Assembly: GCA_003193925.1 (NCBI GenBank)
Contig: PSPG01000001.1
Location: 62,001-126,000 of the forward strand
Origin: Candidatus Thalassarchaeum betae
GTDB taxonomy: Archaea > Thermoplasmatota > Poseidoniia > Poseidoniales > Thalassarchaeaceae
Direction of reading: 5' to 3'
DNA: 64,000 nucleotides
The notes under the pieces were generated by a model that was given only the letters and a program-made list of their open reading frames with translations, made no database searches and was not told where the DNA came from. Of the stretch, positions 16,608-63,505 are shown piece after piece; within the stretch, counting starts at the first letter, position 1; every line of letters starts with the position of its first letter. Position numbers and translations under genes: made by a program.

Positions 16608-16726
16608 TGGTCGGGCACCAAGCGGCCTATGATACCCGGATAGCGCTGGTGATACGCTTGCGCACGCGCGGGGGGTTCTGTTGATAAGCGGGGCGAATTT
16701 GACGGGCCACTTCGGTGGTCGGCACG

Positions 16727-22700: not shown

Positions 22701-24709
22701 TACACCACGACATCACGCTCGACCCGCAGTTGTTGCGTGACGACCCCGAGTCCTTCCTGCCGGACGGCTTCGGACCGGTCAACGTGATTCTGAGATTTGG
22801 GGAGAACCTGCCCCACGAGGGATGCGAACTCCTGGATGACGACATGCTGCGGACTTCCGGGGCGTGGGACCCGTGTACCCAGATAATCAACAGCGAGCAC
22901 TATCGCAAGGTGCTGCAGTTCAACGCGCAGGGATTCTACCTCATAGGCCGCACCAACTTGGTCGTGGACGACCAAATCGTCTACACATCCGAGATTGACC
23001 CAACCACGGGTCAGCCAATCGAGAAGCCGATGATGGTCACCGGGCAGCTGCTCGACGAGCTGGGCAGCAACCTGTCTTACAGGGCCATCCGAGTCGAATA
23101 CCAGATGCTCAACATGGACATGGGCAGCCAGGTCTGCATACCCGGAACCACCAATGGCGACGGATTCTTCGAGATCATCTGCCCGCTCTCCGGTGTCGAA
23201 GCGGGACAGGCCATGGTGACGATATCGTACGACCCGTACGAGAGTCTCGACAACTGGCGTTACAGAGCAACGAACATCACCAAGATCTTCCCGGTGTTCT
23301 CGAACTCCACCATGCTGATCCAGGAGGTAGGTCCGTTCCGAACCGATGTGGACACCTACTCCTTCGCAAACGGCTCGATCTTCCCGGTCCTGTACCTCAA
23401 GGAGTCCTTCCACATCAACGCCTTGCTGACCCAGACCAACGGCAACCCGATTGGCGGCAAGTGCCTGAACATTTACCTCGACCCCATGACTAACACGCGC
23501 CCGATCGCCACTACGATCACGATGGATGGCACAGGTGAGGTCGGGTGGTTCTCGGGCGACCCCGAGGACAACCCGAGCCGGCGAGGGGTCGAGCCCAACG
23601 GCGAACAACTGGAAGGCTTCAGGACGGTGCGCGTGGCCTACGAGCCCAACAAGGAGCTGCCCGGAGGCTGCCGCGCCGAGACCACGCCAGTGGTCAACGG
23701 CTCGTTCATGGACATCGAGGTGCTCGTGCGCAGCCGCGTCGACATCCTGCTGAAGGACCACTGGGCCAGTTCTGTGGGCTACCAGCCAGGTGACTCGATC
23801 ACCGGCGCGGTTTCGATCCTGAGGGACCGTCTGGACCTGTCGGTCGAGGGCGAGACGGTGATATTCACCTTCCAGTACTGGAACGGCACAGGCTGGGTGA
23901 CCAACGATGTCGAGTACGCCGTGACCAACGAGCAGGGAACTGCCAACTTCAGTTACGAGTACTCGGGCGAGGACATACCTGGCGAAATCGAGTGCGATGC
24001 AGGAGGCCCCTGCGCGCAGAGCGGCAGATGGCGGGTACTGGTGCACTTCCAAGAGTCGTCATTCTTCCAAGAGGAGTTCCTCAACAGCACCCCGATCATC
24101 TTCCTCGGAGAGCCCATTGTCACTCAGAGGCAGAGTTTCTTCACCATGCGTGTGATGATTGTTTTGGGAGTCGCCCTGGCTTTCACCGCCCTCATCGGCG
24201 TCATCATGTACCGCAACTACACCGAGCGCCGGCGCATCGAGATCATCCGCGGGATACTGACGGACTCGCTGATGTCGCTCAAGGCCTCGAACGACTACAT
24301 CCAGACCATCTTCAACTGCTACAAGGACCTGGTGAGGTTCTTCAGGTCCAGAGGCGCCATGAAGAAGGTCTACGAGACCACTCGAGAGTTCGAGGACGCA
24401 ATCAACTCGATGCTGGGCGGAATCGCTCCGCCCGAGGACCTCGGCGAACTCTTCTCGATATTCGAGGAGGCGCGCTACTCCGACCATGAGATAGGTGCGG
24501 ACCAGCGTGACAGGGCCATCGTCGCTCTGCAGGCAATCGTCAACCACCTGACCTCTGCTCTGGGCGACAGCATGCTGAGCAGGTCGTACGTTGACGAGTC
24601 GACCCTGTACGGCGCCGTGATTAAGGCCGGAGAGTTCGTCGACTCGGAGGGCCAGACCAGGATTGCAGGCATCGACGAGGACAGCCCGGACGATGGCTTC
24701 CGAATCTGA
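16727..24709 (+). CDS. Giant surface protein: aspartate-rich (TSP3-like) repeats, cupredoxin insert, Ig-like domains, C-terminal DUF4129-like tail
   Basis: A 2660-residue protein with an N-terminal hydrophobic segment (AIAMVLLMLMSAQLYSF) acting as signal or anchor. From about residue 120 to 1295 it is packed with DxDxDG-type calcium-binding units (DHDNDGI, DDDNDGI), as in thrombospondin type-3 repeats. Inside this array, around residues 320-400, sits a cupredoxin domain with VDHTVT and CLLHPTM, giving the His-Cys-His-Met set of a type-1 copper site. Residues about 1300-2460 look like Ig/MG-type beta domains with many N-glycosylation-type Asn-x-Thr/Ser sites. A membrane helix (MIVLGVALAFTALIGVIMY, about 2475) precedes a 165-residue cytoplasmic tail with TTREFEDAI and FSIFEEARYSDHEI, as in DUF4129. 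I prefer ATG 16727, with GGTGG upstream, over GTG 16715. Role is probably adhesion, surface structure or polymer handling; unproven. Confidence 0.88.
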   Translation: MDETSTRTMRDRRKNNSAIAMVLLMLMSAQLYSFQDFERDDPEESEWGAVPQRTAYQQMNQASGPMSGDSQGQPAAGFAWDQVSFTDPRYHDPASFFGKVSDPSILNLDAGYGFFLEQTRTQDHDNDGIDDLNDLDDDNDGINDLLERFDGCYGTDPFDHDNDGILDEFDWDDDSDGILEGPIDYSQGTDPRNVSADRYVEPSTVHPWTGTPVGTGYLVDQNPMDHDNDGITDEDTDGTGRGSYDEDDDNDGRIDQFKWPCDFDGDGLQDYFDLDDDNDGVADLWDEHPWDATKTGNITATAPLWEGWVVWSAGATTHNVNIVSGGYISSTLNINAGDTVVWTNTDTVDHTVTHSGTTFDSNPISPGGTFSYTFTTAGTYNYSCLLHPTMTGQVVVTSSGTTANVYSHFVGGVDYVQRETMWHPRNQSFTMIIDGDLDGDGIPNFLDPDDDNDGTPDSADTDDDNDGLLDMYDVDDDNDGIPDTCHQIDTNNDGVGDYPIPYTRIEVPGIDCEMDYDRDLDDDRYRPIDQDYDLVWDWLDPDMGGTALPDNPLGGPAFDASDIPFDLDNDGLLNEEDPFMISTWDEVQTWNCPSVDNPNPVNSHENCVLMRKSYTGNNDWDGDGINNWEDVDDDNDGILDWLDLDPDCDFDDDNDLHQLNGSMYRDDGPNDIDTDIDGDGLPNDVDWDDDNDGIPDYYDPDDGNCGIVDSDSTDPFSSYYYSHGDGDPIDGSDDSDMYADDTVHTFYWNQSWMFNPFNLENNFVLDYNGYVNDATGVVTGKVPEMYWYVIMKWSPYNGGNYFDIDMDGDSLVNGIDVDQDGDGLPDWWDQDEGNDGVLDVDDIKMGGSFDEGTCGSTLFLVVYQIALSDHACGLDYAWLYGWPLQRATQTQQNIYTSPYSSRPDPEHDEGAYNGSNSQGQWTCNKNCFWFDFFGNQDIGPSSAVTYNQIKDNRDLWIAYVGINYGLFSWNSDGNGNMFPDERADLLNNDVDPDDDCGAPVAGNMEPQCMFNDTADLDDDFDGIYDHWDIDDDNDGIWDYFEVDSNDDFDDDANTEPPGAFFIGFNCEDGDDDGTDTDPDGDGWYQAVWDKGVLGQAMLHPKYYDVDNDNDGVPDGEDPDDDNNGLDDEQQELLCFVGEEQSPWDHDNDGVLDWVDDDWDGDGIVNVLELASATPWITPWDHDNDGLRDDVDLDDDSDGMLDVDEIMLWPSRFGSESTNPWDHDDFGGGEGIANPSDPNTGPDAIDQDDDSDNRTDLDWDHLEEGWTSDNCTNGAESSDWDHDNDCILDEDDKIPTRISLTVPPILWLDNRYAARFNGTVNWLDPEQGVFTPAPDLPVQVHIEWARNGTSAVETIDVLTNQDGVFVVGQFLFPEDIHVGDNTTYIVYAEVTEMFVHDGASTEPVPVEVRANTTIDYVAWTYFRSDEQPLFVDYKVHYTADWERGIFGNRLSHAPVSFTISGGLFGNTTHPTVFDGYGYGYRADSGGWVSLTFVQSSGTQGVWKQVQWNSSMDNGPGKVPGGYEEIVWDNFSKTHSVLDRYNYTNTSLPTGDYAFVGFSRPDLGAEWPWPFLEGERTDSFGIRSMHRMYVEADIITPSIRPVYFWDSTQFTGSSFGAWRAMFHGPSLVNAGLDYTDVSLGKPYAMLWDGSPAGLTGEAARLRPFISSNGTHWFISMQNGGDFNVPPCGPVNPLDPNSDVRCEIVPEMFTGETYRVIGTVWNRTMTAWPHDPMALQVDVDHNGVFAGSSETGYARVPQMVNGEARFDYNWTWYSQYAAGVFGIRADFTNSNYYFTGNQTSVLAPTGAYVNVSVIGTTDFQLNNIPRLYRGQNTTIEARLIDNAYQPVRDAPVNYTWSADGTSDITVTDHNGVFAVNLTIGELHDLGNFTLSYSYPGDPFHQGSSSEIYLWVVSRTLISLQSATSGSMSSGDIWEFSAQVTDDNRTPNPTVFDPGQALDGCGENGGEVLIIFEGTDFEDRTHRQIVEATCPSAGSIHHDITLDPQLLRDDPESFLPDGFGPVNVILRFGENLPHEGCELLDDDMLRTSGAWDPCTQIINSEHYRKVLQFNAQGFYLIGRTNLVVDDQIVYTSEIDPTTGQPIEKPMMVTGQLLDELGSNLSYRAIRVEYQMLNMDMGSQVCIPGTTNGDGFFEIICPLSGVEAGQAMVTISYDPYESLDNWRYRATNITKIFPVFSNSTMLIQEVGPFRTDVDTYSFANGSIFPVLYLKESFHINALLTQTNGNPIGGKCLNIYLDPMTNTRPIATTITMDGTGEVGWFSGDPEDNPSRRGVEPNGEQLEGFRTVRVAYEPNKELPGGCRAETTPVVNGSFMDIEVLVRSRVDILLKDHWASSVGYQPGDSITGAVSILRDRLDLSVEGETVIFTFQYWNGTGWVTNDVEYAVTNEQGTANFSYEYSGEDIPGEIECDAGGPCAQSGRWRVLVHFQESSFFQEEFLNSTPIIFLGEPIVTQRQSFFTMRVMIVLGVALAFTALIGVIMYRNYTERRRIEIIRGILTDSLMSLKASNDYIQTIFNCYKDLVRFFRSRGAMKKVYETTREFEDAINSMLGGIAPPEDLGELFSIFEEARYSDHEIGADQRDRAIVALQAIVNHLTSALGDSMLSRSYVDESTLYGAVIKAGEFVDSEGQTRIAGIDEDSPDDGFRI

Positions 24710-39884: not shown

Positions 39885-42800
39885 ATGGAAAATAAGAAAA
39901 TAATTGCAATGATGCTTACCCTGAGCATGCTGACGGCTGCGTTCGTCGGTTGCCTAGGCGGAGATGATGACGAACCGGAACCAGAGATGGTCATGGGTTG
40001 CACGGACGCGGCTGCGAACAACTACAACGCCGACGCGACGATGGACGATGGCTCGTGTACGTATGACCCGACATGGTCCCTGACACCTGCTTCAGGTGTT
40101 AGTGCTGTGTGGGTGACCTCGGACTGGGACCCCATCATCCCCAACCTGATTGCGGGAGATATGTGTGATGCTATTCTCTCGGCAATGACCAAGACGGATG
40201 AGAGAGACCTTGTGGTCGATTTCACTCGTGGCTACTACACCAGCAGCCAAGGAGTCATTGGAGCTAGCGGAGCCGCTGCCATCTCTGGCATCGGCGATTT
40301 GAACGCGGCTGGAACTACGATTGCCCTGCAATCTGGAACCACCTCAGACATCTACGCTCAGGATAACCTGGACGCAGCTACGATCCAAGCCTATCCGGAC
40401 TTCCCCTCGGTAATCGCAGCCATCAACAACGGAGATGCGGACTACGCACTCGGCGACGCACCTGTGCTCGCATTGGAGGGGACTCTTCTGACGACCTTCT
40501 CCGATGAGACATTCGGTCTGGCTATTCGCGAGGGCTCTGACGAGCTCGAAGATGCTCTGAACGTCGCGATAACCGCTCTAGTCGACGGTGGCCAGTACGA
40601 CGCCATCTTCGGAGCCTGGTTCGAGGGCGCGGTCGTCCTGACGGATGACAGAGACGCCAACACAGCGACGGCTTACCCGACACCCACTGAGGGCAGCACC
40701 CTAACCGGTGTCCTCGAGTCTGGTAACCTGAACTTCTGCACGGACCCGTTCTACCCGCCGTTCGAGAACCTCGACGCGGATGGGAACGCAGAGGGCTTCG
40801 ATGTCGATGTCGGCAACGCGATCGCTGAGGAAATGGCCGCCCACTACATGGGTGCGGCCAACCCCGATTTCGTACCGCCTGTTGTTGTGACCACGAAGAT
40901 CGGACTCCTGAACCCACTGACGGGCCCGATCGCTGTCTACGCACCGCCCTTCACTATCGCTGCACAGATGGCGATTGACGACCTGAACGCGGCGGGTGGC
41001 AACTTCGAGCTGGTCGAGGCCGACTCTGGCTGCAGCGGCGATGTCGCTGCTGGAGCCGCCCAGTCCCTAGTGGACGCGGGCGTGGTCGGCGTGGCAGGAG
41101 CTGCCTGCTCCGGTGCTTCGATGGCCGCTAACGCGGTCCTCCATGCTGCCGGTGTCGTGCAGGTCTCCTATGCGAGCACCAACCCCGGTCTGAGCGATGC
41201 AGATGCCTACCCAGGCTTCTGGCGAGTCGTGCCGAGCGATGCCATACAGGGCCCTGCCATGTCTGACATGGTGGCCGCTGCTGGTGCGTCCAACCCGGCA
41301 CTGATCCACATGACCAACGACTACGGTTCTGGTTTGGCAGACGCCTTCGAGGGCGCATGGGGCACTGACAACCTGTGCATCAAGGTCGGCTACGCGGACG
41401 ACCAGACCGACTGGACTGCCGAGGTTCAAGCAATAGGCGACGCTAACTGTGGCTCGGTCGTCATGGTGAGTTACTCCACTGATGGAGCAGCTATCCTTGA
41501 GACAATGGCCGTGGGAGGTATTTCACTACCTACTTTCGGTGCTGACGGCATCGCTGACGCCGCCTTCTTGGACGACTTCAGCGTACCTGCTATCGCTAAC
41601 GGCGTTATGGCTACCAAGCCGCGCGCTGGCTCGAGCGCTGGTGACTTCAACGAGCGCTGCGCTGCGGATGCAGACTGCGCTGGTGGTATCTACACCGCTG
41701 AGACCTACGACGCTGTGATGATGATCGGCGCCGCGTACAACGCGGGCGGCGACATGGCCGATAGCCTCAACTCGGTCGGAGTGGGCTATGGTGGAGCCAG
41801 TGGCTCCCACACGTTCCTTCCGAACGGTGATGTGGCTGGCGCTGGATACGACATCTGCAAGTTCGATGCCCTGTCATCTACTGACATCTACTTCACTTGC
41901 ATGCAGTGGTGGTCAGCGATCGACGGCATCCAGGACACACCCTTTGCGGGTATGACGGTGAAGATCGGCTTCCTGAACCCGATGACGGGCCCGATCGCGG
42001 TCTACGCACCGGGCTTCGGTGTCGCCGCTAACATCGCCCTAGGCATGATGAACATCGCCGGATGGGGCAGCGGACTGCAGTTCGAGTTGGTAATGGTCGA
42101 CTCCGGGTGCAGCCCCGAGACCGCTGCAACCGGCGCCCAGTCCCTACTGGACGCAGGCGTAGTCGGTGTGGTCGGAGCTGCGTGCTCCGGCGCAACGATG
42201 GCCGCCAACGGAATCCTCTCGGCTGCCGGCATCCCGATGATCTCGTACGCGAGCACCAACCCCGGACTCAGCAACGCTACGGCTTACCCGTTGTTCTTCC
42301 GCGTGGTGCCGAGCGACGCCATCCAGGGCCCTGCTCTGGCTGACGTGGTCACCGCCGACGGCGGTTCCGATGTCGCTCTGCTGTACATGACCAACGACTA
42401 CGGCTCGGGTCTGGCAGACTCGTTCGCAGCCGCATGGGAGGGCGCAGGCAACACCCTGTGCGCATCGATAGGCTACGAGGACACAACCACTGACTTCACC
42501 TCGCAGGTGCAGGCCGTGACGGACAACAGCTGTGGCAGCGTTATGCTAATCTCGTACGCTGCTGATGGTGCAGCCATCGTCGAGGAGCTCGCAGCTCAGA
42601 GCTTCTCCGGACAGATCTTCGGAGGCGACGGAATCGCTGAGGAGGGCCTGTGCGCATCTATGGCAGACCCATCCCTGTGCGACGGAATCGTGGCTACCAA
42701 GCCCGCTTCTCCGACGCCGAACGAGCGCTCGGTGGCATTCGGTGCCATCTGCGCTTCGATCCCGGACTGCGCTGGCGGTATCTACACCGCCGAGGCGTTC

Positions 42801-43040
42801 GATGCCATGATCATCCTGGGATACTCTGTGTTCGCGCAGTTGTCCAGCCCCGGAGCGACTCTGGCGCAGATGATCGGCGCCGTCGGTCAGGGATTCGTAG
42901 GCGCCAGTGGCGTCCACACCTTCACCGCTGATGGCGATGTAGGAGGCAGCGGTTACTGTGTTGGCACGTTCAGCATGGTCGACGGTGCGCCTTCCTTCGA
43001 CTGCACCCGCTCGTGGACATTGAGCGGCGGCATAATCTGA
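39885..43040 (+). CDS. Triple substrate-binding lipoprotein: permuted SBP_bac_3 domain plus two LivK-type domains
   Basis: A 1051-residue lipoprotein. Residues 1-23 are a signal with lipobox cysteine C23 (TAAFVGC), then an acidic linker and a marine-type Cys motif (GCTDAAANNYNAD, DDGSC, 38-58). Residues 76-248 match the latter three-quarters of an amino-acid-binding SBP_bac_3 domain: DWDPIIPNLIAGDMCDAILS, TDERDLVVDFT, ALNVAITALVDGGQYDAIF. The N-terminal quarter of that domain comes after it, at 273-320: LESGNLNFCTDPFYPPFENL and GFDVDVGNAIAEEM. This order is a circular permutation or a relic of tandem copies. Two type-1 (LivK, Peripla_BP_6) domains follow, about 337-690 and 691-1051, each with KIG(L/F)LNP(L/M)TGPIAVYAP and SYASTNPGLS. 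It would capture branched-chain or other amino acids for the permease encoded next. Confidence 0.9.
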   Translation: MENKKIIAMMLTLSMLTAAFVGCLGGDDDEPEPEMVMGCTDAAANNYNADATMDDGSCTYDPTWSLTPASGVSAVWVTSDWDPIIPNLIAGDMCDAILSAMTKTDERDLVVDFTRGYYTSSQGVIGASGAAAISGIGDLNAAGTTIALQSGTTSDIYAQDNLDAATIQAYPDFPSVIAAINNGDADYALGDAPVLALEGTLLTTFSDETFGLAIREGSDELEDALNVAITALVDGGQYDAIFGAWFEGAVVLTDDRDANTATAYPTPTEGSTLTGVLESGNLNFCTDPFYPPFENLDADGNAEGFDVDVGNAIAEEMAAHYMGAANPDFVPPVVVTTKIGLLNPLTGPIAVYAPPFTIAAQMAIDDLNAAGGNFELVEADSGCSGDVAAGAAQSLVDAGVVGVAGAACSGASMAANAVLHAAGVVQVSYASTNPGLSDADAYPGFWRVVPSDAIQGPAMSDMVAAAGASNPALIHMTNDYGSGLADAFEGAWGTDNLCIKVGYADDQTDWTAEVQAIGDANCGSVVMVSYSTDGAAILETMAVGGISLPTFGADGIADAAFLDDFSVPAIANGVMATKPRAGSSAGDFNERCAADADCAGGIYTAETYDAVMMIGAAYNAGGDMADSLNSVGVGYGGASGSHTFLPNGDVAGAGYDICKFDALSSTDIYFTCMQWWSAIDGIQDTPFAGMTVKIGFLNPMTGPIAVYAPGFGVAANIALGMMNIAGWGSGLQFELVMVDSGCSPETAATGAQSLLDAGVVGVVGAACSGATMAANGILSAAGIPMISYASTNPGLSNATAYPLFFRVVPSDAIQGPALADVVTADGGSDVALLYMTNDYGSGLADSFAAAWEGAGNTLCASIGYEDTTTDFTSQVQAVTDNSCGSVMLISYAADGAAIVEELAAQSFSGQIFGGDGIAEEGLCASMADPSLCDGIVATKPASPTPNERSVAFGAICASIPDCAGGIYTAEAFDAMIILGYSVFAQLSSPGATLAQMIGAVGQGFVGASGVHTFTADGDVGGSGYCVGTFSMVDGAPSFDCTRSWTLSGGII

Positions 43041-43077
43041 GTCCTAAAAGTGACTGAATGAAAACTGGGAACGTAAA

Positions 43078-43110
43078 GCACCACTGCGGGCTAACTGCCC
43101 GCCGTGGTGC
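43078..43110 (+). terminator. Strong hairpin between binding-protein and permease genes
   Basis: GCACCAC, one mismatch, GCGGGC, loop TAACT, GCCCGC, mismatch, GTGGTGC: a 13-base-pair stem 37 bases after the lipoprotein stop. It is followed by CCCCCC rather than a U-run. Such a structure usually protects the upstream mRNA or stops part of transcription, so that binding protein exceeds permease. Confidence 0.6.
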
Positions 43111-43125
43111 CCCCCAACAATGATT

Positions 43126-43155
43126 ACCGCACACAGACAGCGTCGAGCGTGCGGT
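43126..43155 (+). promoter_or_regulatory. Second hairpin just upstream of the permease start
   Basis: ACCGCAC at 43126-43132 and GTGCGGT at 43149-43155 are perfect reverse complements with a 16-base loop. The stem ends 8 bases before the GGTGA ribosome-binding site of the permease gene. Together with the hairpin at 43078 it could control read-through or translation. Confidence 0.35.
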
Positions 43156-43174
43156 AGCGCCGCGGGTGACGCCG

Positions 43175-46100
43175 ATGCTTGGACCAGTATTCGACAGGTG
43201 GCACTCGCTCTCCAGAGGGCAACGCAGGACAGCCATCGCCCTGCTGATTCTCATAGACGCGAACATCGGCCTGCTGTACGGTTCAGGCCTGCTCAATCAG
43301 TTCGATTCGATATCAGGAGGCAAGATACCCAACGACATGGTCTGGCTTCTCCAGGCCATCGAGTCGATATCCGGCGGATTCTTTCTGGTCAAGATCCTGT
43401 TCGACGACGTCGCGGCCAGTTGGCCCAGATCAATCGGCATCGCTCTGTCCCCCCTGTTCATCCTGTTCATCGTGGGAATGACCCTGGACAACCTGTTCAA
43501 GGGCCTAGATGACGATGTGAGGATCACACTCGATCTGATTTCCATCTCCACTTCCACTCTGACTTGGTCGTCGACCTACCTCGCGATTGCGGTCGGCCTC
43601 ACTCTGACCTACAAGGTCCAGCGCTACGGTAACTTCGCCCAGAGCGAGCTCTTCATGATGGGGATGTATCTCTCTATGGTGATGGTATGGAGCGATTACT
43701 TCTTCCCGCTGTACGACGCACCCAGAGACGGCACTCTGGCCTGGTCCCTGCTGCTCTGGACTGTGCTGGCAGCCTTCGTCCTGACTGGCATAGCTGGCAT
43801 AATCATCGACCGCCTGGTCTACCGGGGCTTCCGCAAGAAGGAAACCAAACCTCAGGTGATGATGATAGCGTCTCTGGGTGTCGCACTCATTCTCAGGGCC
43901 ATCGTCTACCTGCGCTTCGGGGCGGGCAAGAAGATGTTCGAGCCGGATGCGGACTGGAGGGTGCCCACCCTCAGGTGGGACATACCCACACATAAGCTGC
44001 GCCTCAACCTCGGCAACAGGGATCTCGAAGAGGGCCAGACGTACACCCACGGTCCCACCATAGGGGAATGCACCGAAATTGACGGCGCCCTTCAGCCAGA
44101 GGTCAGTGGCTCCACGCCCCTTTTCGATCTGTACAACGCGGCCAACGACTGCGTAACCGAGGCCACCACCGGCTACGCGTACTACAAGGGCGCCATGCCC
44201 CTGGTGATATTCTCCTCTGTCCTCCTTCTGCTAATCCTGCTGAGGAAGACCCGCTTGGGCCGCAGGATGAGGGCGGTCGCCGACAACCCCGACCTCGCAG
44301 CGAGCAGCGGCATCAACGTGGAGAACATCCAGATGACCAGCGCCTTCCTGTCCGCTGGCATCTCGGGAATGGGTGGGGCCATCTTCGCGATGACGCTGAG
44401 GTTCGCCCCCGAGACCGCTTTCACCCTCCTCTTGCCGTCGTTCGCCATCATCGTCCTCGGCACCATCGGCTCGATTCCCGGAGTCCTGGTCGGCTCGCTG
44501 ATCGTCGGATTCGTCAGAGCACTGTCTTCGCCGGTGCTGATTGCCATTGGCCAGCCCCTGGGCCGCTCCAATTACACCGCGCTCGACGGGGTGATGCCCT
44601 ACATCTTCCTCATAGCAATCCTGATGATCATGCCGAGCGGCATCGGCGCCGCCTACGAGAAGTGGAAGGTCGACAGGTTACGCAGACGAGCCGAGGAGCA
44701 GCCATCCAAGCGATTGGGAGGACTCCTCGCCATTTCCCCGTTGGGTGCTTTGGGGGCGCATAACTTCCAGCAGAGGAAGAATGCCCGCGGCGAGTCGATG
44801 ATGATAGTCTCAGTCGGCGCCTACGTATTCAGCAGGATCACCCGCTTCATCAGCGGCAACTCCTTCGCCGACGGCTCGTGCTCGAACGACTGCCAAGCCA
44901 GTGAGTCCTCTGCCACCAACTTCGAGATGGTGACCGGCAGGACGGAAGGCGACTTCATTCTGGAGGACTCGCCATTCTCCCTCTCAGACGTGCCAGACCC
45001 CCCCGACGGTCTGGACGCAACGTTGCACGACCAATGGCTCACCGACGCTCTGAGCGAACTCAACAACTCGTGGTTGGACCTGATGAACACCGAGCTGGGC
45101 CTCGTGGACAACCTCGTGAGCCTCGGCGACGCCCTGTGGCCCGCCGTGCCCCTCCTAGTATGGATAATCGCAGCATTCGAGGGACTTTACCTGCTACAGG
45201 GTCGTGACGAGGACGCCCTGCGGCCCGCGACCGAGTTCCTGAACAGTCTCCTGGCCCCCGTCATGCAGTCGAGAAACTCCGGCTCAGTAGCGATGACCCA
45301 GGCTCTCGGCTTGGCCAAGGCCCCCCTCGATTCGTTCCACACAGCGCTGTATGACAGTCTGGACAGGTTCCAGTCGGGCTTCGACCGTAATCAGAAGTAC
45401 ATGCTCCTAGCAGTCTTGGTGATAGTTCTAGTTTCGGAGTTGCCGCCGTTCTTCGGAAAAGCCCTCCTAGTGCTCGGCTTGCTCTGGCTCGTCGGACTAA
45501 CTATCCTAGCATGGCGCTCAGGCGAGGGGCCCTTGGGAGAACTGAGGCGCCTCTCCCCGCACGGCAGAGAGAGCCCCATCGGTTCGTGGGTGCTCTTCCT
45601 CTCGGTACTGGTATTCCTTCTGCTGTTCGTGGAGTGGCTGCCTGTGGCCGAGGTAGAGAATCATGACTTCATCAAGGCGCTCCAAGTCTCCAACGTCCTG
45701 ACCACTCTGGCCATCTTCACCCTGATGGCTTTCGCCCTGAATCTGCATACGGGCGTAACTGGAATGGTTAACTTCGGCATCATCTTCTTCGTTGGGGTCG
45801 GGGCGATCACCGTCGGCCTCCTCACCGCCCCCAAGGACCTGCACGGGTACGACTGGCCCGTTTTCTGGGCCGTTGTCGCCGCCGTGCTGATCTCAGCAGG
45901 CTTTGGCTGGCTGCTCGCCTATCCCACAGCCAGGCTGAGGATGGACTACTTCGCTATCGTGACGATATCCCTCGGCGAGATTGCCCGCGTCCTCTTGATG
46001 GGGGAGCCACTGCTCAGAGCAGGCTCGTGGGGCTCGGCGATCGGTATCTCGAGGTACAAGCTGCCGTTGAAGGACTGGTGGTTCTGCGGTAGCGGTGAGC

Positions 46101-47062
46101 ATCTGAGCGAAGCGGGAGGGTTACTTAGTTCGGATGAGTGCCGCGGGGTGGTGGGAATCGGCAGCCCGGCGGAGAAGCTCGGCCGCTCTGACATCCCAGT
46201 GCTCGATGACAGGGGAGGAGTCATCGATGGGGAGTTACTTTACGAAGCGACATGGTTCTCGATGGATCTTGGTGAGCCCGCGCCCTACATGATGGTGCTC
46301 GCCATCATCGGCGTCGTCAGCCTGATTCTGATCTGGTGGCTCTTGGAGACGCTGCTCAAGTCCCCGTGGGGGCGGATCCTGCGTTCGATCAGGGAGGACG
46401 AGGAGGTCGCTCAGCACCACGGGCACGATGTGCTCACGCACAAGGCGGCCAGCCTCGCTCTGGGCGCTGGGATAGCAGCCTTCGCCGGTGCCCTGTGGGC
46501 GTGGAAGCTCACCGGCTTCCAACCGTCCTTCATGGCCCCGGCGAAGTCGACCTTCCTGGTCTGGGCCGCGTTCATCGTCGGCGGGGCGGCCAACAACAAG
46601 GGCATGGTGGTGGGAGCGTTCATCATAGTACTCATGGAATTCGTGTTCAATGTCTTAGTTGCCGGCCAAGGCTCGTCAGACCTGCCGCTGCACGAGACCG
46701 CGGCGAAGATTGACCAGCTCTTCGAGTGGCTGGTCACAGGAAGCGATCTGTGGTTCTGGCCCCACACCACCCCGATCGAGACGTTCCTGCTGCTCGCTGC
46801 ATTGGGACTGTTGATCAACAAATCAGCGATGGTCGAACTAGGATTCTCGGGAGTCGCCGTGTTCATGGCAACCTACCTGCTTCTGGGCGAGCGCTCCATC
46901 GACGAGTCGTTCGTCGGCGGCAGCATCCTCGCCAACATGGCCTATGTCAAGGTCTTCCTAGTCGGGTGCCTCATCCTGCTCTCGCTGAAGTACAACGCCA
47001 GGGGCATACTGCCTGAGGTGCCCGTCAGACCACCGAGGCCAACGGAAGGTGATGCGGAATGA
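43175..47062 (+). CDS. Fused branched-chain amino acid ABC permease (LivH-LivM in one chain)
   Basis: A 1295-residue integral membrane protein combining both permeases of a Liv importer. The LivH part (about 1-500) has ALTLTYKVQRYGNFAQSEL-like LivH residues, VADNPDLAASSGINVENI and GMGGAIFAMTLRFAPE. A linker of about 280 residues with two or more extra helices follows. The LivM part (about 780-1290) has HTGVTGMVNFGIIFFVGVGA, MDYFAIVTISLGEIARVLL and SIREDEEVAQHHGHDVLTHK, the EAA-like loop that contacts the ATPase. Extra hydrophilic loops hold cysteine pairs (GECTEID with NDCVTE; WWFCGSG with SDECRG; DGSCSNDCQ), probably outside the membrane. The start is ATG 43175 with GGTGA 5 bases upstream. 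It overlaps livG by 4 bases. Confidence 0.92.
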   Translation: MLGPVFDRWHSLSRGQRRTAIALLILIDANIGLLYGSGLLNQFDSISGGKIPNDMVWLLQAIESISGGFFLVKILFDDVAASWPRSIGIALSPLFILFIVGMTLDNLFKGLDDDVRITLDLISISTSTLTWSSTYLAIAVGLTLTYKVQRYGNFAQSELFMMGMYLSMVMVWSDYFFPLYDAPRDGTLAWSLLLWTVLAAFVLTGIAGIIIDRLVYRGFRKKETKPQVMMIASLGVALILRAIVYLRFGAGKKMFEPDADWRVPTLRWDIPTHKLRLNLGNRDLEEGQTYTHGPTIGECTEIDGALQPEVSGSTPLFDLYNAANDCVTEATTGYAYYKGAMPLVIFSSVLLLLILLRKTRLGRRMRAVADNPDLAASSGINVENIQMTSAFLSAGISGMGGAIFAMTLRFAPETAFTLLLPSFAIIVLGTIGSIPGVLVGSLIVGFVRALSSPVLIAIGQPLGRSNYTALDGVMPYIFLIAILMIMPSGIGAAYEKWKVDRLRRRAEEQPSKRLGGLLAISPLGALGAHNFQQRKNARGESMMIVSVGAYVFSRITRFISGNSFADGSCSNDCQASESSATNFEMVTGRTEGDFILEDSPFSLSDVPDPPDGLDATLHDQWLTDALSELNNSWLDLMNTELGLVDNLVSLGDALWPAVPLLVWIIAAFEGLYLLQGRDEDALRPATEFLNSLLAPVMQSRNSGSVAMTQALGLAKAPLDSFHTALYDSLDRFQSGFDRNQKYMLLAVLVIVLVSELPPFFGKALLVLGLLWLVGLTILAWRSGEGPLGELRRLSPHGRESPIGSWVLFLSVLVFLLLFVEWLPVAEVENHDFIKALQVSNVLTTLAIFTLMAFALNLHTGVTGMVNFGIIFFVGVGAITVGLLTAPKDLHGYDWPVFWAVVAAVLISAGFGWLLAYPTARLRMDYFAIVTISLGEIARVLLMGEPLLRAGSWGSAIGISRYKLPLKDWWFCGSGEHLSEAGGLLSSDECRGVVGIGSPAEKLGRSDIPVLDDRGGVIDGELLYEATWFSMDLGEPAPYMMVLAIIGVVSLILIWWLLETLLKSPWGRILRSIREDEEVAQHHGHDVLTHKAASLALGAGIAAFAGALWAWKLTGFQPSFMAPAKSTFLVWAAFIVGGAANNKGMVVGAFIIVLMEFVFNVLVAGQGSSDLPLHETAAKIDQLFEWLVTGSDLWFWPHTTPIETFLLLAALGLLINKSAMVELGFSGVAVFMATYLLLGERSIDESFVGGSILANMAYVKVFLVGCLILLSLKYNARGILPEVPVRPPRPTEGDAE

Positions 47063-56942: not shown

Positions 56943-58190
56943 TCAGCATTCTACCCCGTGCTCCCTGAACAGCTCCTCGAGGCGAGTCAGCCCAAGGTCC
57001 ACGTTGTCGTACGGGGGTCCGAAGGAGAACCGCACCCACTGGCGGAACGGGCTCTCACCGCTTCTCTCACCTCCCGGATTGACGTCGAAGAACTCGCCGG
57101 GCACCGTCATCACCTGCCTGTCGAGGGCGGCCCAGAACAGCCCCATCCCGTCGTTGAGCGGCTCGGGCAGGTCCTCGACACATGCCCAGACGTAGAACGT
57201 CGCTGCCCCCGGCAGGCACCTCATCCCCATCTTGGTCAACCGCTCGACCATCATGTTCCGCTTCTTGACGAAGGCCACCCGCAGAGCACTCGTCTCCTGC
57301 TCGGCGTAGGCTGGCTCGAGCGCTCTGAGAGCCATGCGCTGCACGATGCGGCTGGGCCCGCCGTCGATGGCACTGGCGGCACGGCCGAGGGTCTCGACTA
57401 TCTCCGGTGGGCCGAGCACCCACCCCATCCTCCAGCCGGGGTAGCGGAACGACTTGGTCAGACCGTCGATGACGAGTACCGGGTCGATATCCGGGTCCTC
57501 CACGAATTGGGCGGAGGAGACAGGACCGCGTCCGGGATGGTCACCCTCGTAGATGAAGTGCGAGTAGAACTCGTCCATGATCAGGGTGCAGCCCTCGCGG
57601 CGGGCGGTCTCGCAGTAGGAGGCGAGTTCGTCGCCTTGGATGACGTGGCCGGTCGGGTTGCACGGGTTGGAGATGAGGAAGGAGTCGAGCCTCTTCGCAG
57701 CCTCAGCGAACTCGGCGGCAGGGATAGAGAAGTTGTTCTCCTCCGCTGTCGGGATGAGGACCGGCTCCAGCCTCGAGGCGGCGTAGTCCATCATGTCCTG
57801 ATAGGCGGTGTAGTCTGGGACCTGGTAGCCCATCCTGCCCTGCACCGACCCGAACACCCGGCTGAGCATCACCCGGCCGCCCTGTGAGATGCCGACGTTG
57901 GCAGCGGTGTACGGCTTCTTGCCGCGGCGGTAGTAGCGGTTGTAGTGATCGGCTACCGCCTGGCGCATCTCATCGGTTCCGTTGATCGGACCGTAGGCCT
58001 GGTCCTCGGGCTCGATGACCACGGAGCGCAGACGGTCTGGAGCACCCTCCATCTCGCCGATCTCCGGTTGGCCCTGACCGAGGTTGCACCAGTCCGGGTT
58101 GCCGTTCCAGAAGCCGCGCTTGTGGGCCTCGGCGACGACCCAGATGACACCCATGTAAGGGACCTCGCGGAACGCTCCATCCCCCGCCAT
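56943..58190 (-). CDS. PLP-dependent aminotransferase, class I/II
   Basis: A 415-residue fold-type I aminotransferase. It has NLGQGQPEIGEMEGAPDRL at the N-terminal part, GPINGTDEMRQAVADHYN, NVGISQGGRVMLSRVF for cofactor binding, LISNPCNPTGHVI, the Asp-x-Phe-Tyr of LIMDEFYSHFIY, and DGLTKSFRYPGWRMGWVLGP with the Schiff-base lysine. The specificity is not clear; aspartate or another amino acid is likely. The start ATG 58190 is chosen from the family length; the frame runs on upstream into the divergent gap. It abuts the dioxygenase gene end to end, so a link with cysteine sulfinate transamination is attractive but unproven. Confidence 0.9.
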   Translation of the reverse strand: MAGDGAFREVPYMGVIWVVAEAHKRGFWNGNPDWCNLGQGQPEIGEMEGAPDRLRSVVIEPEDQAYGPINGTDEMRQAVADHYNRYYRRGKKPYTAANVGISQGGRVMLSRVFGSVQGRMGYQVPDYTAYQDMMDYAASRLEPVLIPTAEENNFSIPAAEFAEAAKRLDSFLISNPCNPTGHVIQGDELASYCETARREGCTLIMDEFYSHFIYEGDHPGRGPVSSAQFVEDPDIDPVLVIDGLTKSFRYPGWRMGWVLGPPEIVETLGRAASAIDGGPSRIVQRMALRALEPAYAEQETSALRVAFVKKRNMMVERLTKMGMRCLPGAATFYVWACVEDLPEPLNDGMGLFWAALDRQVMTVPGEFFDVNPGGERSGESPFRQWVRFSFGPPYDNVDLGLTRLEELFREHGVEC

Positions 58191-58297
58191 GGCTCTCCGT
58201 GACGCTGGGGACAAATGAGTTTGACTTCTCGGAGCACGCAGCGTGCTCCAAGGGTGCACGAACAATTGTTAAATCTCGACAGGGTAGTCAAGGTGCG

Positions 58298-61200
58298 ATG
58301 CGCCGACCCACCCGACCCTCAAACGCCCTCTCGATAACCCTAGTCGTTCTGCTACTGGGAATGTCGGCCTCGCTTGCCATTGACTCAGGTGACAGAGCCG
58401 AATTGGCCGTTGACAAGCCCGTCCTTGAGACCCATTCGAATCTGTACTTCCCCGGGTCTCAGGAAGGCTCGATTTATTCCGATTCGACACTAGCCGCGTC
58501 CTCTTTTCACACATGTGTAGTGATGGACGATAAAAAAATGAAATGTTGGGGGGACGGAGTCTCCGGGAAACTAGGAAACGGCTCCTCCCTAGACAAGTAT
58601 GTGCCAGAATACGTCGCATTGGGAGCAAATGGTGGGCCATCTCTAGCCACCGAGCATTTCTCTTACGGGCATTTCTCCCTGGCGCGTATGATTGATGGTT
58701 CAATCCAAGGCTGGGGTGAGAACGGCCAAAACAATATCGGGTGCGATACCACTACCTGCTGGTGGGGAGGAGGACAAAACTTGCCACTTCAAACGAAGAT
58801 GCCAGCCACAAGAACAGCCATACAGGTCTCACCTGGCTTACACCACTCTTGCGCTGTCATGGATGACCTGTCGGTGTGGTGCTGGGGGCAGAACAACTAC
58901 GGGCAGGTAGGAAACGGATACGCCCCTCAGGATGTGACTCAAGGACCGACCAACATCCCCATGCCCACAGGCCGCACCGCCATTGCACTAGCAGGTGGCT
59001 CCCAATACTCCTGCGCCGTCCTCGACGACGGTAGTGCGATGTGCTGGGGCAGTAATGACTACGGCCAACTAGGCACTGGAAATTACGTTGATGTGGACGA
59101 ACCGACAGCAGTCACAGCCGTCCCTTCAAACCGTACTATAGCCGCGATTTCAGCAGCACAGAAGACGACTTGCGCAATACTGGATGACGGCAGTTTGGTC
59201 TGCTGGGGGCGCGGCGAACTCGGCCAATTCGGAGATGGAACCTACACATCATCGTCAACCACCGCTAGGTATGTCTCTCTACCAGCGGGCCGAACTGCGA
59301 TTTCGATTACTACGGGAATGGAACACGTCTGTGCAGTCCTGGATGACCACAGCGCTTGGTGCTGGGGAAACAACTCCTATGGCCAAATCGGTGATGGGAC
59401 CACTACAAACCGACCCATGCCGACTAGTGTCTCCTTCCCAGCAGGTCTGACCGTATCCGTTATCACTACAGGCAGTACTCACACCTGTGCGATTGCATCC
59501 AACGCCTCGGTGTACTGCTGGGGATCGCACGAAGAAGGAGAGCTCGGTTTGGGTCAGCTTAGCACTGGCTATAGAAGAGATAGCGACATCCCTGCGTGGG
59601 TCAACCTGTCGGGTGGAGGGGCTGGACCTGGAGCCCATGCCTCCGTGGGTGAGAGGGACCCTGACCACGACGGCATCATCTCGATCTTTGATTCGACTCC
59701 ATGGCCTGCCGATTCGTGCCCTCCGGGCCAGTATCTGTGGGACCTCCATTGCGTTGACGCGTCTCCGGGTCACTACGTTCCTTACCATGGTATGACCGAG
59801 GAATTCCCTTGCCCCGAGGGGACCTTCAACCCCGATACCGGACAGAGTTCGTGCTACGATACTACCCCCGGTCACTACACAAATTCAACCGGCTCCAGCA
59901 CCCAGACCGACTGTCCGCCAGGTACCTACCAACCGGACTATGGACAAACCTCGTGTTTGGATGTCGATCGCGGCCATTACAGCAATGCAGGTTCAGCCTC
60001 TGGGATACTCTGTCCACCGTCAACCTACCAGCCCGACACCGGACAGCCATCCTGCTCGGATGCCGATCCAGGGCACTACGTCTCCGAGACTGGGCAATTC
60101 GACCAGATCCAATGCTCGCCCGGCACCTACCAGCCGGTGGCCGGTCAGACCAGCTGCTTCTCAGCATCGGAAGGGTACTACGCACCGGGCTTCGGCTCTG
60201 CGGAACAGTTGGTCTGTGAGCCCGGGGCATACTCCCCCTCCACCGGCCTGGACTCCTGTTACCCTGCAGATCCGGGCTACTATGTATACGAGGAACTGGC
60301 GACTGGCCAGACGCCCTGTCCAAAAGGGTCCCATCAGCCTACTCCGGCATCGATAGGGTGCTCGCTGGTCAATCCCGGGCACTACGCTCCAGCACCGGGA
60401 ACCGCATTCGAGATTCCCTGTCCCGCGGGAACCTACCAGCCCGATTCGGGCGCCGACCACTGCATCGACGCCGACATAGGCCACCACGCATCCGGCCCTG
60501 GCAATTTCGATCAATCCCCATGCGATCCGGGAACCTATGCATTCGAGGGTGGCACGGGTGACTGTCTGGCCGCAGACCCCGGGTATTACGTACCCGACTC
60601 AGGGGCGAGCAGCCAGACAGCCTGCGAAGTTGGAGAGCACCAACCGGACTCCGGTGCCCCCACATGCTTGGATAACGAGATCGGGCACTATACCGACCAG
60701 ACCGGGACTGCGGAGCAGATACCGTGCTCACCCGGTACTTACCAGTCTTCGATTGGCCAAACCGCCTGTATAGAAGCCGACTTCGGATTCCACGTACCCT
60801 ACTCAGGCTCTGCTGGGCAGATACCATGCTCGCCTAGTACCTACCAGTCCTCGACCGGTCAGGTGTCCTGCACCGACGCCGAGCCCGGCTATTTCGTCTC
60901 CGAGCACGAAGCCTCAGTGCCATCCGCCTGCGAGCGCGGAACCTATCAATCGGAGGGCGGCCAGACCGAATGCGTAGACGCCGATCCCGGATACTACGTC
61001 CCTTCCATGGGATCACCTTCCCAGACCCCATGTGAGAGGGGAACCTACCAGACTTCAGGTGGACAGCACGAATGCATTGAAGCTGGGCCGGGGTACTACG
61101 TTTCCACGAGTGCAGCACTGTCCCCTACGTCCTGCAGTCCAGGGACCTATCAGGACAGCACCGCCATGATGAGTTGCAAAGAGGCAGATGTGGATCACTA

Positions 61201-61480
61201 CGTCGCTGAATCGGCTGCGGCTGGCCAGAGCAAGTGCGCCGATGGAGACAGCCAACCTGAAAGAGGGCAGACCAGCTGCATAGGGGCCGACAACACGATG
61301 CTCATCATGGGAGGGGTCGCGGTTCTCGCGGTCCTTGCCCTCACTGTGATGTACAGAAACTCGCAGAAGCAGAAGCCCGCGCCGAAGCAGCGGCGTAAGA
61401 AGCGACCGCCTGAAGGCAAGCAACGCAGGCGCAGGCCACCGAAAGGGAAGCGGAGAAAACGCCCTCCGAGCAGCGAGTGA
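58298..61480 (+). CDS. Giant surface protein: RCC1 propeller plus 15-16 cysteine repeats, membrane anchor, basic tail
   Basis: A 1060-residue protein with an N-terminal signal helix (LSITLVVLLLGMSASLAI). Residues about 60-440 hold seven RCC1-like units, each with (C/G)WGxxxxGxxG (CWGDGVSGKLGNG, CWGQNNYGQVGNG, CWGSNDYGQLGTG, CWGNNSYGQIGDG), enough for a closed seven-bladed propeller. A short acidic DPDHDGIISIFD spacer follows. Residues about 474-1000 are a 33-34 residue repeat of the form CxPGTYQPxxGQxSCxxADPGHY, with two cysteines per unit, similar to GCC2/GCC3 or ephrin-receptor-like modules. Then come a membrane helix (MLIMGGVAVLAVLALTVMY) and about 45 residues packed with Lys and Arg. ATG 58298 has AAGGTG upstream. 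Role is likely adhesion or binding at the surface. Confidence 0.88.
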   Translation: MRRPTRPSNALSITLVVLLLGMSASLAIDSGDRAELAVDKPVLETHSNLYFPGSQEGSIYSDSTLAASSFHTCVVMDDKKMKCWGDGVSGKLGNGSSLDKYVPEYVALGANGGPSLATEHFSYGHFSLARMIDGSIQGWGENGQNNIGCDTTTCWWGGGQNLPLQTKMPATRTAIQVSPGLHHSCAVMDDLSVWCWGQNNYGQVGNGYAPQDVTQGPTNIPMPTGRTAIALAGGSQYSCAVLDDGSAMCWGSNDYGQLGTGNYVDVDEPTAVTAVPSNRTIAAISAAQKTTCAILDDGSLVCWGRGELGQFGDGTYTSSSTTARYVSLPAGRTAISITTGMEHVCAVLDDHSAWCWGNNSYGQIGDGTTTNRPMPTSVSFPAGLTVSVITTGSTHTCAIASNASVYCWGSHEEGELGLGQLSTGYRRDSDIPAWVNLSGGGAGPGAHASVGERDPDHDGIISIFDSTPWPADSCPPGQYLWDLHCVDASPGHYVPYHGMTEEFPCPEGTFNPDTGQSSCYDTTPGHYTNSTGSSTQTDCPPGTYQPDYGQTSCLDVDRGHYSNAGSASGILCPPSTYQPDTGQPSCSDADPGHYVSETGQFDQIQCSPGTYQPVAGQTSCFSASEGYYAPGFGSAEQLVCEPGAYSPSTGLDSCYPADPGYYVYEELATGQTPCPKGSHQPTPASIGCSLVNPGHYAPAPGTAFEIPCPAGTYQPDSGADHCIDADIGHHASGPGNFDQSPCDPGTYAFEGGTGDCLAADPGYYVPDSGASSQTACEVGEHQPDSGAPTCLDNEIGHYTDQTGTAEQIPCSPGTYQSSIGQTACIEADFGFHVPYSGSAGQIPCSPSTYQSSTGQVSCTDAEPGYFVSEHEASVPSACERGTYQSEGGQTECVDADPGYYVPSMGSPSQTPCERGTYQTSGGQHECIEAGPGYYVSTSAALSPTSCSPGTYQDSTAMMSCKEADVDHYVAESAAAGQSKCADGDSQPERGQTSCIGADNTMLIMGGVAVLAVLALTVMYRNSQKQKPAPKQRRKKRPPEGKQRRRRPPKGKRRKRPPSSE
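59717..61300 (+). repeat. Tandem cysteine-rich repeat, about 102 bases per unit
   Basis: Fifteen full units and a partial sixteenth run inside the preceding gene, each coding 33-34 residues with a first cysteine in C(P/S/E)xGTYQ and a second in SC. The DNA of the units has diverged, so this is an old array and not a recent expansion. Confidence 0.8.
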
Positions 61481-62611: not shown

Positions 62612-63505
62612 ATGCGAGGCCGCATAGCGCTCGTCCTCATCATCGTGCTGCTCACGCCCGCACCTGGGCAGGCAACCGAGGCAGTCGACCTCTCAGAGAG
62701 CAGAGGCATCGTGGGCGGCCTCGTCATCGACCTCGGACTCGGCGAGCAGGATACCTCGGTCAGTGCTCAGGCCGAGGACCTGCCTCGGGTGGTCGAGGTG
62801 TACACGGCTACGTGGTGCGCTAACTGCGTCGGCGCCGAGCACGCGCTCGACGAGGCGATTGAGGGCGAGAACGCCGTGGTCCTCTCTCACCACCGTTCGA
62901 TCGGCGAGGTCGAAGACCCCTTCGGCACACAGGACGGGGACTGGCGCTGGGAAGACCTGTACGGTAGTGCCTCCCAAGAGGTAACCGGGCTCATGAGAGC
63001 CGCCCCGACCATGGTCTTCGACGGCTGCAGGGTCAAGGTCGGGACCTCTCCCAGCGGAGACTCGCTACAGACGGATTACGAAGAACTCCTCGCATTGCCG
63101 ATGCCCGTTTCAGGTGCGGAGTCATCGACTCTGACTTGGACGGGTAACAACAACTCGGGCACGGTTGGCTGGGGCTTCTCCTTCGCCCCCGCGGAGACGA
63201 CCAGTTGGGTTCACCGGTTGATGGTCGTCGAGGCGGTCGCGAACTTCCCCGAGGGCAGCAACGGCTTAGAGGACTACACCACCGTCGTCAGGGAGGTGGT
63301 GACTCTCAATGGAGACGATGGCAGCATGGCGCTGGAACTGCCAGCGGCCTGGGATGGAGACGACCTCTATCTGGTTCTGCTGCATGAGTGGACAACTGTG
63401 GCTGAGGAGGCTGACGGCGGCATTCTCAGCGCTCTTCCAGGCCTTGGAATGCTCACTCTCCTGCCAATCCTGGCAGCTCTCCTGCCTTCCCGCAGAGAGC
63501 GCTGA
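62612..63505 (+). CDS. Secreted thioredoxin-like protein with C-terminal sorting-signal-like tail
   Basis: A 297-residue protein with a signal peptide (IALVLIIVLLTPAPGQA). Next is a thioredoxin-like domain around residues 58-160 with CxxC in TATWCANCVGAEHAL and a cis-Pro candidate in APTMVFDG. A beta-rich domain follows. The C-terminus, LPGLGMLTLLPILAALLPSRRER, is a Pro-Gly start, a short hydrophobic helix and arginines (given here as two pieces: LPGLGMLTLLPILAALL then PSRRER). That layout is like archaeal PGF-CTERM tails processed by archaeosortase. It probably acts outside the membrane on disulfides, perhaps those of the cysteine-rich surface proteins in this window. Confidence 0.78.
   Translation: MRGRIALVLIIVLLTPAPGQATEAVDLSESRGIVGGLVIDLGLGEQDTSVSAQAEDLPRVVEVYTATWCANCVGAEHALDEAIEGENAVVLSHHRSIGEVEDPFGTQDGDWRWEDLYGSASQEVTGLMRAAPTMVFDGCRVKVGTSPSGDSLQTDYEELLALPMPVSGAESSTLTWTGNNNSGTVGWGFSFAPAETTSWVHRLMVVEAVANFPEGSNGLEDYTTVVREVVTLNGDDGSMALELPAAWDGDDLYLVLLHEWTTVAEEADGGILSALPGLGMLTLLPILAALLPSRRER

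Follow-up and report, generated by a model that had tools for sequence, protein, structure and literature searches.

The window, the whole 64,000-nucleotide stretch of DNA that was analysed, contains at positions 58298 to 61480 (+) a gene for a propeller-on-stalk surface protein. The protein is genuine and apparently undescribed in its group within the literature searched, where no mention was found of RCC1 together with Poseidoniales, or of the module combination. A paper on Methanomassiliicoccales was set aside, as ‘RCC1’ is a strain name there. The source organism is a Ca. Thalassarchaeaceae archaeon (marine group IIb, Poseidoniales), and so an archaeon as originally noted. Among named relatives, Ca. 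Thalassarchaeum betae is the nearest, the protein being 80% identical between the two.

Marine group II archaea abound in surface seawater and are uncultured. What is said of their contact with particles, algae and each other is mostly a guess based on genes for flagella, thrombospondin and flotillin (PMC6461757, PMC6336850). This conserved and clearly delimited display protein, with its predicted rod and a head predicted to bind, offers something definite to express, to screen for ligands and to image. Judged from its sequence and structural models, the protein probably serves adhesion or ligand capture by the planktonic cell, not transmembrane signalling (probability about 0.55).

Architecture of the protein

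The reading frame begins with an ATG at position 58298 and its stop codon ends at 61480, making these coordinates exact. It encodes 1060 residues of a type I membrane-anchored surface protein, as supported by full-length orthologues and profile matches. The parts follow in the order signal peptide, seven RCC1 blades, Asp-rich loop, Cys stalk, membrane helix and Lys/Arg tail. The head, stalk and anchor design of the original prediction is borne out by Pfam profiles, Cys spacing, hydropathy and predicted fold.

The signal peptide covers residues 1–27 (58298–58378, +), with a hydropathy of 2.3 at residues 10–28. Its L20-G21 and S25 are invariant in 13/13 aligned sequences, the relatives among which are 36–80% identical to the query. 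At the other end, the expected membrane helix followed by a Lys/Arg tail is present. The helix lies at about residues 998–1018 (61289–61351, +; hydropathy 2.39 at 1000) and is placed at 1007–1020 in the full-length AlphaFold2 model, within a region of low confidence. The last 37 residues (61367–61477, +) form a cytoplasmic Lys/Arg/Pro tail of (K/R)RPPKGKRRK-like repeats, containing 19 Lys or Arg and 8 Pro. This tail is basic in all aligned sequences, yet its length and sequence vary.

The propeller head

The seven-bladed RCC1 propeller occupies residues 62–440 (58481–59617, +), and is recognised by Pfam, AlphaFold2 and superposition on UVR8. Pfam matches RCC1 seven times (E 7e-43) and WD40_RLD with an E value of 2e-60. 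Both RCC1-like propeller profiles (PF25390/PF00415) score above their curated cut-offs, at 205.6 vs 150 bits for WD40_RLD and 145.4 vs 21.7 bits for RCC1.

The blades were delimited from the AlphaFold2 strands and the alignment, and all seven are kept in the 13 aligned sequences. Blade 1 spans residues 64–105 (58487–58612, +) and carries the invariant pair Cys73-Cys83. Blade 2, at residues 117–165 (58646–58792, +), is degenerate, having lost the Cys pair and gained a CxxxxC insert. The remaining five, all on the same strand and each with its pair, are blade 3 at residues 174–220 (58817–58957, +; Cys185-Cys195), blade 4 at 228–271 (58979–59110, +; Cys239-Cys249), blade 5 at 281–325 (59138–59272, +; Cys292-Cys302), blade 6 at 334–377 (59297–59428, +; Cys345-Cys355) and blade 7 at 386–435 (59453–59602, +; Cys397-Cys407). 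The query thus holds Cys pairs in six blades. Across the 13 sequences and 7 blades, both cysteines are kept in 87 cases, both are lost in 4 and one alone is lost in none. Such paired loss is the behaviour of bonded cysteines and suggests that the blades contain disulfides.

The head was modelled from 22 aligned sequences, comprising the window's own and the loci of named contigs. The model contains 28 strands (7 x 4), with a pTM of 0.81 and a pLDDT of at least 90 over most of the propeller. Foldseek placed it on the whole UVR8 propeller with a target TM-score of 0.92 over 374 columns and an rmsd of 1.7 A. The matches after UVR8 were RCC1, HERC2 and RPGR, and the ectodomains of ACR4 and CR4 also match the head by fold. 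As the ring can be superposed end to end on a closed seven-bladed structure, the model predicts a closed propeller. Seven WG-type RCC1 units had been proposed to suffice for this; the strand count and the UVR8 score agree, and the modelled ring matches UVR8 throughout.

Both head and stalk are under purifying selection, with the head changing faster in the clade of the query. For the pair P0001-L009 the dN/dS is 0.56 (0.40–0.78) in the head vs 0.20 (0.15–0.26) in the stalk, and for P0001-L010 it is 0.44 vs 0.13. The low head dS of P0001-L009 could also reflect recombination. Other clades show little or no such difference, with none for L014-L015 and L024-L025.

The hinge and the Cys-rich stalk

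Between head and stalk lies the sequence RDPDHDGIISIFDSTP. It holds an RDxDxDGIxSIFDxTP loop at residues 453–470 (59654–59707, +), in which all 13 sequences share R453, D454, D456, D458, I463 and D465. The conserved Asp pattern is that of a TSP3-like hinge of the calcium type, and the loop would be expected to bind Ca2+. This Asp-rich loop was absent from the original prediction.

The stalk extends over residues 474–996 (59717–61285, +), as defined by Pfam, Cys spacing and a match to the mastigoneme protein Mst1. It contains an N-terminal cap pair (474/485) and 15 full two-Cys modules of 33–34 residues at 505–994, which accounts for the ‘15-16 units’ first counted. Ephrin_rec_like is matched 11 times (E 9e-33), and the Ephrin_rec_like / GCC2-GCC3 profile (PF07699) exceeds its curated cut-off in 11 stretches (112.3 vs 23.1 bits). 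The cysteines follow a repeated 20/14 spacing with one exception (19). In autocorrelation, self-identity at lag 34 reaches 0.363 vs a maximum of 0.14 in 500 shuffles. Weaker peaks at 17 and 51 indicate that the 34-residue module is a pair of 17-residue hairpins. No DNA-level repeat was found by Tandem Repeats Finder, the modules having diverged in DNA.

In the full-length AlphaFold2 model every module shows two short hairpins, at a pLDDT of about 70. The rod is predicted to consist of some 32 small beta-hairpins, each 34-residue module supplying two of them and one Cys pair. The Cys-rich rod of Chlamydomonas Mst1 matches the stalk by sequence (E 1.5e-20), and mastigoneme entries match it by fold (E 6.5e-25). 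It has been reported that 678 Cys-rich residues of Mst1, with 26 disulfides, span 26 nm (PMC11015965). Scaled from this, the 521 residues of the archaeal rod would reach roughly 20 nm, its straightness and length being estimates given the moderate confidence of the model (overall pTM 0.44). In the 13 sequences, 31/32 stalk cysteines are invariant, the exception being one loss at the cap. This pattern, with that of the blades, suggests that modules and blades alike are disulfide bonded.

The length of the stalk is fixed. Measured between the outermost stalk cysteines, it is 519–528 residues, with 16 Cys pairs, in all 13 sequences, and the longer paralogues (1587–1766 residues, 58–61 Cys) also vary little. 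Three tandem gene copies in another family genome (L072, G025:C114:1500-13000) have 46 Cys each. Two tandem copies of the propeller-stalk gene occur at a further locus, L073. Tandem arrays tend to vary in unit number through gains and losses, and the constancy of this one points to selection on stalk length.

Distribution and gene neighbourhood

Orthologues or their fragments are present in 12/13 genomes of the genus. The one genome with no match, G003, is 67% complete, and the flanking genes are also missing from its assembly. In a phylum-wide sample, 65/293 genomes match, 62 of them in Poseidoniales and only 3 outside that order. Ephrin_rec_like is found in 33/60 genomes of the order, chiefly Ca. 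Thalassarchaeaceae, and no close relative of the surface protein was found in several family genomes of genera g2, g3, g5 and g8. The combination, originally considered notable in an archaeon, is indeed archaeal, but it is widespread in one order and is not a lone oddity. Larger proteins are encoded by other members of the order, an example being L042 with 26 RCC1 repeats in 3511 residues.

The query genome encodes one further protein of the type, a long form of 1635 residues (G000:C20, L038), located elsewhere in the genome. It shares the seven blades, the same modules and a C-terminal membrane anchor. It differs in its roughly 22 module pairs, an extra inserted domain and Asp repeats of TSP3-like type; its cytoplasmic tail is acidic, with a W/Y-rich motif at the end, where the query tail is basic. 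By reading, and with no profile match, a stalk insert of ~150 residues in this paralogue (L038:3190-8097, -) resembles a PPC-type domain. A separate open frame of 1717 codons (L066:2989-8139, -) contains 91 Cys in about 42 stalk-type steps and closes with a membrane helix; it runs off its contig, and no propeller is seen in the sequenced part.

The gene order at the locus is cupin (CDO-like), aminotransferase, propeller-stalk gene, GntG-type aldolase and secreted CxxC protein. This order is kept throughout the genus and in some of the family, and the position beside the aldolase gene is conserved in the genus and several sister genera. A recent single transfer from eukaryotes is rejected, since orthologues run through genus and family at a conserved locus. 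A virus-borne gene was also rejected, as a search of IMG/VR with six peptide patterns gave no relative.

The aminotransferase (56943–58265, -) is 84–88% identical in L010 and L017, and about 27% identical in others at the same position. In most relatives a distant aminotransferase has apparently taken its place. The aldolase occurs in 51/60 relatives, including genomes without the surface protein, and often lies away from the surface gene. The secreted CxxC protein (62612–63505, +) is thioredoxin-like with a CANC motif (CENC or CTNC in relatives), and has no Pfam or NCBIfam match. Its C-terminal PG...RR helix resembles an archaeal sorting signal, and it is conserved in 57/60 relatives. It was rejected as a dedicated stalk oxidase, because it is so widely conserved and adjoins the aldolase in three genomes (G024, G034 and G059) where the surface protein is missing at that site. 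As the CxxC protein and aldolase are conserved without the surface protein at the locus, their link to it is one of position only.

Other large genes were seen in the window. At 39885–47062 (+), a 1051-residue protein joins family 3 solute-binding, receptor-type and Leu/Ile/Val-type binding domains, and adjoins a 1298-residue protein with two permease domains; these are fused transport components. At 16715–24709 (+), a 2664-residue protein has a cupredoxin-like domain and DUF4129 near its C-terminus, and otherwise no profile matches.

Proposed function

In the favoured mechanism, the protein would be exported and anchored C-terminally by its one helix, with the basic tail inside. Disulfides, together with Ca2+ at the hinge, would stiffen the rod, which would hold the propeller outside the envelope at a height of roughly 20 nm above the membrane. 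One face of the propeller disc may then bind a ligand, which could be a partner cell, a particle polymer or another copy of the protein. The fixed length of the rod would set the reach, and the faster-changing head would set what is bound. The basic tail would make the topology positive-inside and might also cluster the protein laterally on acidic lipids or proteins. As there is no cytoplasmic domain, signalling is unlikely, and the simplest role would be in adhesion or ligand capture. Adhesion has been independently proposed to matter in Poseidoniales (PMC6461757).

The main rival, itself improbable, is that of a structural pillar of the envelope, where the fixed stalk sets the gap between membrane and outer layer and the propellers pack side by side as all or part of an S-layer-like sheet or polymerise in the manner of mastigonemes. 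The constant stalk length and the C-terminal membrane anchor are consistent with this, as is the homology of the stalk to the rod of Mst1, a polymerising protein whose Cys-rich domains provide the dimer interface (PMC11015965). However, a main S-layer protein is expected in every genome of its group, and several Thalassarchaeaceae genomes have no match. The faster variation of the head than the stalk in the clade of the query is also unexpected for a lattice-forming part. A related and more speculative idea, to be held with considerable doubt, is that the stalk is a molecular ruler, its selected repeat number fixing the distance from head to membrane. The 16-pair protein and its paralogue of about 22 pairs would then show propellers at two set heights on one cell, building a layered or filamentous envelope.

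The original prediction likened the design to eukaryotic-like receptors, and this is not supported. A receptor of the CRINKLY4 kind would pass a ligand signal from propeller via stalk and helix to the cytoplasm. The order of parts is the same as in CRINKLY4 (PMC4617170), and the fold matches of the head include the ectodomains of ACR4 and CR4, but all that is found inside the cell is the 37-residue basic, proline-rich tail, which has no domain and varies in length and sequence. Nor is a signalling gene found beside the propeller-stalk gene by Pfam and NCBIfam searches of its neighbours, which makes such a receptor very unlikely. Least probable of all is a display protein that binds substrate for the flanking aminotransferase, GntG-type aldolase and cysteine-dioxygenase-like cupin. 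The conserved gene order favours it, and it is countered by the wide and often distant occurrence of the aldolase, also in relatives lacking the surface protein, and by the apparent replacement of the aminotransferase.

Comparison with known systems

In its model, the head shares the complete, closed seven-bladed fold of the UVR8/RCC1/HERC RLD propellers (PF25390, PF00415). It differs from these in its predicted extracellular location and in the Cys pairs of its blades, and no evidence was found for Ran exchange, UV sensing or ubiquitin work by the archaeal head. The stalk is built of ephrin-type modules homologous to those of Mst1, and is likewise predicted to be an extended disulfide rod. 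In Mst1, which polymerises, the Cys-rich domains form the dimer interface (PMC11015965), and the rod is accompanied by Ig-like domains and a poly(hydroxyproline) helix. The archaeal modules are more regular (strict 34) and are joined to a propeller head and a membrane anchor. The rod runs directly into the transmembrane helix, with no poly-proline helix after it.

The plant receptor kinase CRINKLY4 (ACR4) has seven propeller repeats with C(X10)CWG, followed by a Cys-rich module and a membrane helix (PMC4617170). The archaeal protein has the same order, from an N-terminal seven-repeat propeller through a Cys-rich module to the membrane, a likeness of layout and not of membership. The ACR4 fold match is weaker than that of UVR8 (TMt 0.76). 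CRINKLY4 also differs in having a three-repeat TNFR module, as opposed to 15–16 ephrin-type modules, and a kinase inside the cell; no kinase domain was matched in the archaeal protein by Pfam or NCBIfam.

RCC1 propellers, held in the original prediction to be better known from eukaryotes, are frequent in secreted proteins of bacteria too, mainly in Myxococcota. No ephrin-type modules were found in the twelve genomes of RCC1-bearing bacterial matches, and in a wider sample they occur in 8/141 Myxococcota genomes. At least two Myxococcota proteins (L056 and L059) combine the same two module types as the archaeal protein. Their order is reversed, with TNFR/ephrin modules preceding the propeller, and L056 consists of an N-terminal lipobox-like signal (LLLGC), stalk and propeller. 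With order and anchor differing in this way, an identical architecture was not found to be widespread in bacteria. The same disc, rod and anchor design with opposite chain polarity suggests that the archaeal and myxobacterial versions were assembled independently. Archaea thus share the propeller-plus-cysteine-stalk layout of plant receptors, and myxobacteria have it with the order reversed; the modular parents of the archaeal protein are in plants, algae and myxobacteria.
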